Shown piece by piece: positions 59,267 through 61,727 of a stretch of DNA of 64,000 bases. The stretch comes from Brevibacillus choshinensis (GTDB lineage Bacteria > Bacillota > Bacilli > Brevibacillales > Brevibacillaceae). The notes under the pieces were generated by a model that saw only the letters and a program-made list of their open reading frames with translations, was not told where the DNA came from and searched no databases. Positions within the stretch are counted from its first letter, which is position 1. Every line of letters starts with the position of its first letter. Both the position numbers and the translations under genes were made by a program. The stretch lies in the NCBI RefSeq assembly GCF_016811915.1, contig NZ_CP069127.1, forward strand, positions 1,766,001-1,830,000. Reading direction: 5' to 3'.

Positions 59267-59577
59267 ATCAGCGACGTGATTCGATAAGTGGAATAGTTCG
59301 AACGAATGGGATATTCGTGCTAACACGACTTGTTTCGACAATAACGAGCTAGGACTTTTGGGGGGAACGCCCTGAAAGGATTTGTCAGACCCGTTTCTGG
59401 TCTGCTCGTCGAGATAGGTCGTGTTTCACATGGATAAAAATCGTTCTAGTTGAGAAGTGTTTTTTGTCGAATAAAAAAATTTGGTAATATTCATGTATCA
59501 TGTGATAATTGTGAATAGTCGGACTGGGGGAACTTGAAATTCCGGCAAATCACTAGATAGAGAAGAGGGTGAACGCA
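59267..59577 (+). other. Gap between the kinase gene and the M6 protease gene
   Basis: It contains a CAGACC/GGTCTG hairpin (about 59391-59410) and an AT-rich segment with TTGTCG and TAATAT that may be part of the protease promoter. No gene is seen. Confidence 0.45.
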
Positions 59578-61295
59578 GTGAAGAAAGGCAAGAAGCTATT
59601 ATCCATCCTATTTTCTTCCTCACTGGTCCTGAGCGGCATTGCGGCGGTTCCAGCGACAGGGATGGCCAAGTCAAAGGACAAGCCGCCGCTTGAAGTGGAT
59701 TTGTCCACAGTGAACATGGATCGTTTGGTTAAAGCCTTGATCGACCAAGGTGAAATCGACGAGGACGCCGACCAGGAAGAGATCAACAAAGCTGTGGAGA
59801 AGTTTTTGAGAGACAAGAAAGTTCCCCACGGCATTGATGACTCCAGCTCCTTCGGGAAAAAAGCAAGCAAAACCCAGCTTTCGGCAGTATCAAAGGCAGC
59901 AAGCAAAGTATCCAAGCTCAAAGATGACAAGCAAGTGCGCGCTTCCAAGCGGGTACATACGGATAATCTGGTGATTGCCCTGGTCGAGTTCAATGATCTG
60001 GAGCACAACCAGGTGCCAAAACAAAGCGATTCCTTGTGGACGGCAGACTTCGACCAAAAGCACTACGAGGAAATGCTGTTCGATCGTAAAGGCTATACGA
60101 CTCCTGAAGGGATAAGCATGACCACGATGGCCAAGTACTACTACGAGCAATCGGGTGAGACATGGACCGTGGATGGGGTTGTCACTCCGTGGTTGACTGC
60201 CGAAAAAGATAAGAAATTCTACGGTGGAAACGATGAAAACGGCAACGATGCCAACCCACGCGATCTGGTCGTCGAGACACTGGAATCTGTAGGGGATGCC
60301 ATCAAGGGTCATGAAGAAGAATACGACCAACGCGACCCGTATGACTTGGATGGAGACAGCGATCTGATGGAGCCGGATGGCATGCTGGACAACCTGATGC
60401 TGGTTCACTCCGGTATTGGTGAAGAGACTGGGGAAGATGCGGATGCGATCTGGTCTCACCGCTGGACTCTGAAAAAGCCGACAGAAATTCCAGGCACCAG
60501 CCTGAAAGCTTACGACTACATGATTCAGCCTGAAGATGGCGCACCCGGCGTATTCGCACATGAATACGGACACAACCTGGGACTGCCAGATCTGTATGAC
60601 ACGACAAGACTGGGACATGATTCGCCGGTTGGCGCATGGTCGCTGATGTCTTCCGGAAGCCATACAGGTAAGATCTTCCAAACCCAACCAACCGGATTTG
60701 ATCCTTGGTCCAAAATGATGCTGCAGGAAATGTATGGGGGCAAGTGGATTGAGCCGCAAGTCATCAATTACGGAGACCTGAAAAAACGGAAAAAGCAGGC
60801 TTCGCTCTACGATGGCAGCAGCCTCGATGAAGATGGCAAAGTCATCAAGCTGAATATGCCGCAAGTAGAGAAGACACCGCCGGTTCAACCGAAAGACGGC
60901 GATTATTCTTACTTCTCCGATGAGGGCGACAATCTGAACACGAAGATGACTTCGGAAGTGATCGACCTGACAGGCGCCAGCTCCGCATCGATGAGCTTCG
61001 ACTCCTGGAGAGCGATCGAGACCGGGTACGACTACCTGTACGTGAACGTGATTGATGTCGACTCAGGTGAGAGCACAACAGTAAAAGAGTACGATGACGA
61101 AACCAAAGGCTGGGATAAGGAAGAAATCAGCCTGAACGATTTCGCTGGCAAAAAGATTCAAGTCGAGTTCAACTACGTGACGGATGGCGGCTTGGCGATG
61201 TCCGGCTTCTATCTGGATAATTTTGCAGTCACAGCAGACGGCGAAGTAGTCTTCTCGGATGATGCAGAAGGCGACCAGGGATCCGATTATCGCGA

Positions 61296-61343
61296 GAAGT
61301 TCCTATACTTTCTAGAGAATAGGAACTTCGGAATAGGAACTTC
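61296..61343. other. Perfect 48-bp FRT site (FLP recombination target)
   Basis: The inverted 13-base FLP elements GAAGTTCCTATAC (61296-61308) and GAATAGGAACTTC (61317-61329) flank the core TTTCTAGA, and the extra repeat GAATAGGAACTTC (61331-61343) follows after one base. This is the complete yeast 2-micron FRT sequence used in marker-excision cassettes. It is not expected in a natural Firmicute chromosome. Confidence 0.99.
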
Positions 61344-61350
61344 GATATCA

Positions 61351-61389
61351 AAGGGCGAATTCCAGCACACTGGCGGCCGTTACTAGTGG
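61351..61389. other. TOPO/pCR-type cloning-vector polylinker remnant
   Basis: Immediately after the FRT and a GATATC site come AAGGGCGAATTCCAGCACAC, then TGGCGGCCGTTACTAGTGG. This matches in order the TOPO joint, EcoRI site, BstXI-type region and SpeI site of pCR2.1-family vectors (reverse orientation). Native sequence resumes at or just before 61388. Confidence 0.97.
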
Positions 61390-61727
61390 CGTAGTCGATG
61401 CGCATCAGGAAGTTCGTTACTGGAATAACGATGAGGGCAACGAGGAGGCCATTGCCGACTCCCGTTACCAAGTGAACGATGCGGCATTCAGCCCGAACAA
61501 AACCTCCGGCATGGATCTCGACTACATTCTCGGCACGATGGATTACGAGCCGCTGAAAGGCATTACCGTATTCAAAGACAGTGATGATTACACGATGCCG
61601 GAAGTTCCGGAAATCGGAAAAATCCTGCCGAAGATCGGTCTGCAAATCAAATTAATTCGTGTGTCCAAGAAATTCACGAACGCACAGGTCGAGTTCTCCA
61701 TCAAAAAATAAGAGGTCAATCGCAGAG

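Follow-up and report, generated by a model that had tools for sequence, protein, structure and literature searches.

The window analyzed here, 64,000 nucleotides of the Brevibacillus choshinensis genome (contig NZ_CP069127.1, positions 1,766,001 to 1,830,000), carries near its right-hand end a gene for an M6 metalloprotease that is interrupted by a short run of foreign DNA (Table 1). Pfam domains identify the catalytic and MAM regions of the protein, which is probably secreted, judging from a signal-like N-terminus and from its family, and by name the gene would be emp. At the center of the interruption is an exact FRT site, complete in its 13-bp arms and 8-bp core, the minimal 34 bp of which was matched 0 times in 100 shuffles. 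The FRT is followed by GATATC and then by AAGGGCGAATTCCAGCACACTGGCGGCCGTTACTAGTGG (61351-61389; 39 bp), the reverse complement of the pCR2.1/pCRII-TOPO left polylinker arm. A pCRII-TOPO homology primer is in print, GTAACGGCCGCCAGTGTGCTGGAATTCGCCCTT, and the left arm is its reverse complement (PMC12366255). Leftward of the FRT are a BamHI site (GGATCC) and an NruI site (TCGCGA), both of which were absent from the aligned relatives.

Table 1. Features of the interrupted M6 protease locus, and the second scarred gene with its intact homologue. Positions are those of the window unless another locus is named.
Feature	Position	Strand	Remark
M6 (immune inhibitor A-like) metalloprotease gene, probably secreted and probably emp, 5' remnant	59569..61278	+	Residues 1-570; catalytic and MAM domains
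Synthetic linker GGATCCGATTA with BamHI site	61279..61289	.	Non-native: relatives are without the linker
NruI site TCGCGA	61290..61295	.	Cassette edge common to all three scars
Full-length 48-bp FRT	61296..61343	-	Exact match; minimal 34 bp at 61296-61329
EcoRV site GATATC	61344..61349	.	Opposite cassette edge
pCR2.1/pCRII-TOPO left polylinker arm	61350..61389	-	39 bp from 61351; final GG may be native
Premature TAG stop	61384..61386	+	Within vector SpeI site
M6 gene 3' remnant	61388..61711	+	Out of frame; 77 native codons gone ahead of remnant
Scarred HETAGHD...DETASD gene	L002:1508-2191, genome 2193952	-	
Intact homologue of HETAGHD...DETASD gene	L053:674-2035	-	

Comparison of the locus with that of relatives revealed what the foreign DNA had displaced. 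A close and full-length M6 homologue, in a single open frame of 754-799 residues, was found in 17 other genomes of the genus. In 17/17 of these, 77 residues lie between the point at which the upstream remnant ends and the motif GVVD[AS]HQ, with which the downstream remnant begins. In the window the scar stands in their place, and ~231 bp of native M6 sequence have been removed. By this comparison, the scar is a deletion-replacement and not a plain insertion. The scarred protein ends at residue 605, at the vector-derived TAG, and has lost its VEG domain. Apart from this truncated copy, the genome has no close M6 gene of the InhA-like type.

A first-pass annotation of the window had reported a 48-bp FRT, GATATC, and about 39 bp of pCR2.1/TOPO polylinker, with a frame change and a stop inside a secreted protease gene. 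The parts of the scar were found exactly as described, and the M6 reading frame does stop within the vector sequence; the foreign DNA, at 61279 to ~61387, is slightly longer than first noted. The annotation had also proposed that a resistance cassette was inserted and then excised by FLP, and that this explained the broken gene. Engineering was upheld by the FRT, the TOPO sequence, and two further scars (below), which together argue for it more strongly than a single scar would, but plain insertion was not, as native DNA has been replaced. The truncation of the gene likewise stands, given that it is intact in the relatives; the catalytic domain that remains is, however, complete, and the truncated protein is likely, rather than certain, to be inactive.

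Exactly three FRT sites are present in the genome (6,166,741 bp, one contig), at positions 1827296 (the M6 gene), 2193952, and 2426984. The second is in a putative cytoplasmic metalloprotease gene with the motif HETAGHD. There, the scar breaks a ~453-residue protein directly after HETAGHDILHADTGLLGE, and ~42 codons are gone, including those for DETASD, a conserved motif that could plausibly supply the third zinc ligand. This scar is bordered by half sites of EcoRV, which is what blunt ligation of an EcoRV fragment would leave. By name this gene would be imp. The protein had no relative in Pfam, NCBIfam, or the PDB, and was present in just 2/118 genera of its class. We tentatively suggest that it could belong to an undescribed metalloprotease family, marked by HETAGHD and DETASD and confined to Brevibacillus and one near relative.

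The third scar is in spoIIAC, the third gene of spoIIAA-spoIIAB-spoIIAC, which encodes sigma-F. Approximately 33 codons are missing from this gene (sigF), with the cut in sigma region 3 and region 4 lost. The intact homologue of the gene passes TIGR02885 SigF.

All three scars have an NruI-FRT-EcoRV unit in common, and their vector ends vary by target. The left TOPO arm is present at two of the three loci and the right arm, AAGGGCGAATTCTGCAGAT, at two; the scar in the window has the left arm only, and that in spoIIAC retained both. Each arm matches published pCRII-TOPO primers (PMC12366255). This combination of a shared unit and target-specific vector ends is the mark of one cassette that was recycled three times. 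At each locus there is a single FRT copy and no marker, and native codons have been replaced relative to unmodified relatives. We also considered FLP-driven rearrangement among the three FRT sites and rejected it, as each scar is flanked by the halves of its own gene. Gene order and strand, emp(+), imp(-), and sigF(+), agree with those of a relative (G008), indicating that no FLP-driven inversion or deletion between the scars was fixed.

FRT is a natural sequence of the yeast 2-micron, and beyond this source nothing speaks for the sites in B. choshinensis being natural FRT-like sequences or remnants of a mobile element. When up to one mismatch was allowed, FRT was found in 0/198 related genomes (25 in the same genus), and in the window an exact 48-bp FRT adjoins TOPO polylinker and cloning sites. 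The adjoining vector polylinker already rules out a natural origin, the probability of which we regard as negligible.

The same FRT is also present in database entries for plasmids, phages, and laboratory E. coli, within what seem to be laboratory constructs. The TOPO polylinker arm was observed at differing positions in three T7 phage records (PP384393.1, PP384395.1, and PP384397.1), which are presumably engineered phages. Among the contigs of GTDB species genomes, in a scan that may omit the window's own record, there was a single exact FRT match, filed under Collinsella. The contig concerned, from the species representative of Collinsella aerofaciens (NZ_SPFO01000040.1), is 3,026 bp long with 3.8-fold coverage, has its FRT at L006:1509-1542, and contains a 184-bp stretch identical to the integrase region of a laboratory K-12 record. 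This contig is probably contamination.

Vector sequence is a frequent contaminant, and the low-coverage Collinsella contig resembles such a case. By analogy, the scars in B. choshinensis might have been created during assembly, either as an artefact or through the in silico joining of contaminating vector to the chromosome, yet this is very improbable. This is because three scars lie on one contig, each between the halves of one gene from which codons have been removed, and their vector ends are different. In addition, the T7 promoter of the TOPO backbone was looked for and was not found.

Our data therefore support, with high confidence, deliberate gene disruption at three targets using a TOPO-cloned FRT marker and FLP excision, in a strain that is most likely B. 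choshinensis HPD31-SP3 or a direct derivative. The scar in the window is thus ordinary, documented strain engineering and not biologically novel. The scar sequences, the missing native codons, the three target genes, and the co-linearity with a relative were observed directly, and the scars most likely arose as follows. An FRT-flanked marker would have been cloned into a TOPO vector, and the marker cassette would then have been cut out via polylinker sites and set between two arms of the M6 protease gene. Crossing of the cassette into the chromosome would have replaced the ~231 bp, and removal of the marker by FLP recombinase would have left polylinker and a single 48-bp FRT behind. Repeating this procedure on spoIIAC and on the gene for the putative intracellular protease would have allowed one marker to serve in three rounds. 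A search for leftover FLP with Flp_C gave no match, although no control matched either.

The identity of the strain rests on the match of genotypes. An acetolactate decarboxylase with a solved structure, which might have served to name the genus, has no gene in this genome. Of the Takara host SP3 it has been written that "imp emp and genes relating to sporulation have been disrupted" (PMC4438461), and the strain is described as non-sporulating and low in protease (PMC3582527). The first-pass annotation had tentatively named a B. choshinensis HPD31-type host, and this suggestion has gained in strength, as all three disruptions correspond to the genotype published for SP3. In the open literature we found brief descriptions of SP3 but no paper on its FLP/FRT construction or giving emp or imp sequences, and the absence of such a report leaves some room for a different FLP/FRT-engineered Brevibacillus, an in-house strain that is neither SP3 nor a derivative. 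We consider that unlikely, however, as FRT scars were found in all three SP3 gene classes and nowhere else.

That the strain is engineered has consequences for the use of its genome. A single-contig genome that represents its species in the reference set is that of an engineered production strain, so that the damage to emp, imp, and sigF does not reflect loss in nature. Comparative studies based on this genome would wrongly treat sigma-F and the two proteases, the InhA-like and the putative intracellular one, as naturally lost. The three scars also offer a PCR signature by which the host can readily be recognized, and they reveal how it was built.

In comparison to known systems, the closest solved structure to the intact M6 homologue is the M6 metallopeptidase immune inhibitor A (PDB 4YU5, top match, E 1.5e-126), and the homologue likewise has M6, MAM, and VEG domains, whereas the copy in the window is truncated and is without 77 codons of the VEG region. 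The scars resemble those of FLP/FRT marker-recycling knockouts, which likewise leave one full-length 48-bp FRT at the deleted locus; they differ in that the FRT is flanked by TOPO polylinker and by NruI and EcoRV sites that stem from restriction cloning, and in that the host is Gram-positive. The genome as a whole is like the expression host SP3 in that the extracellular protease, the putative intracellular protease, and the sporulation sigma factor are all disrupted, and no difference from the published genotype of that strain was seen.
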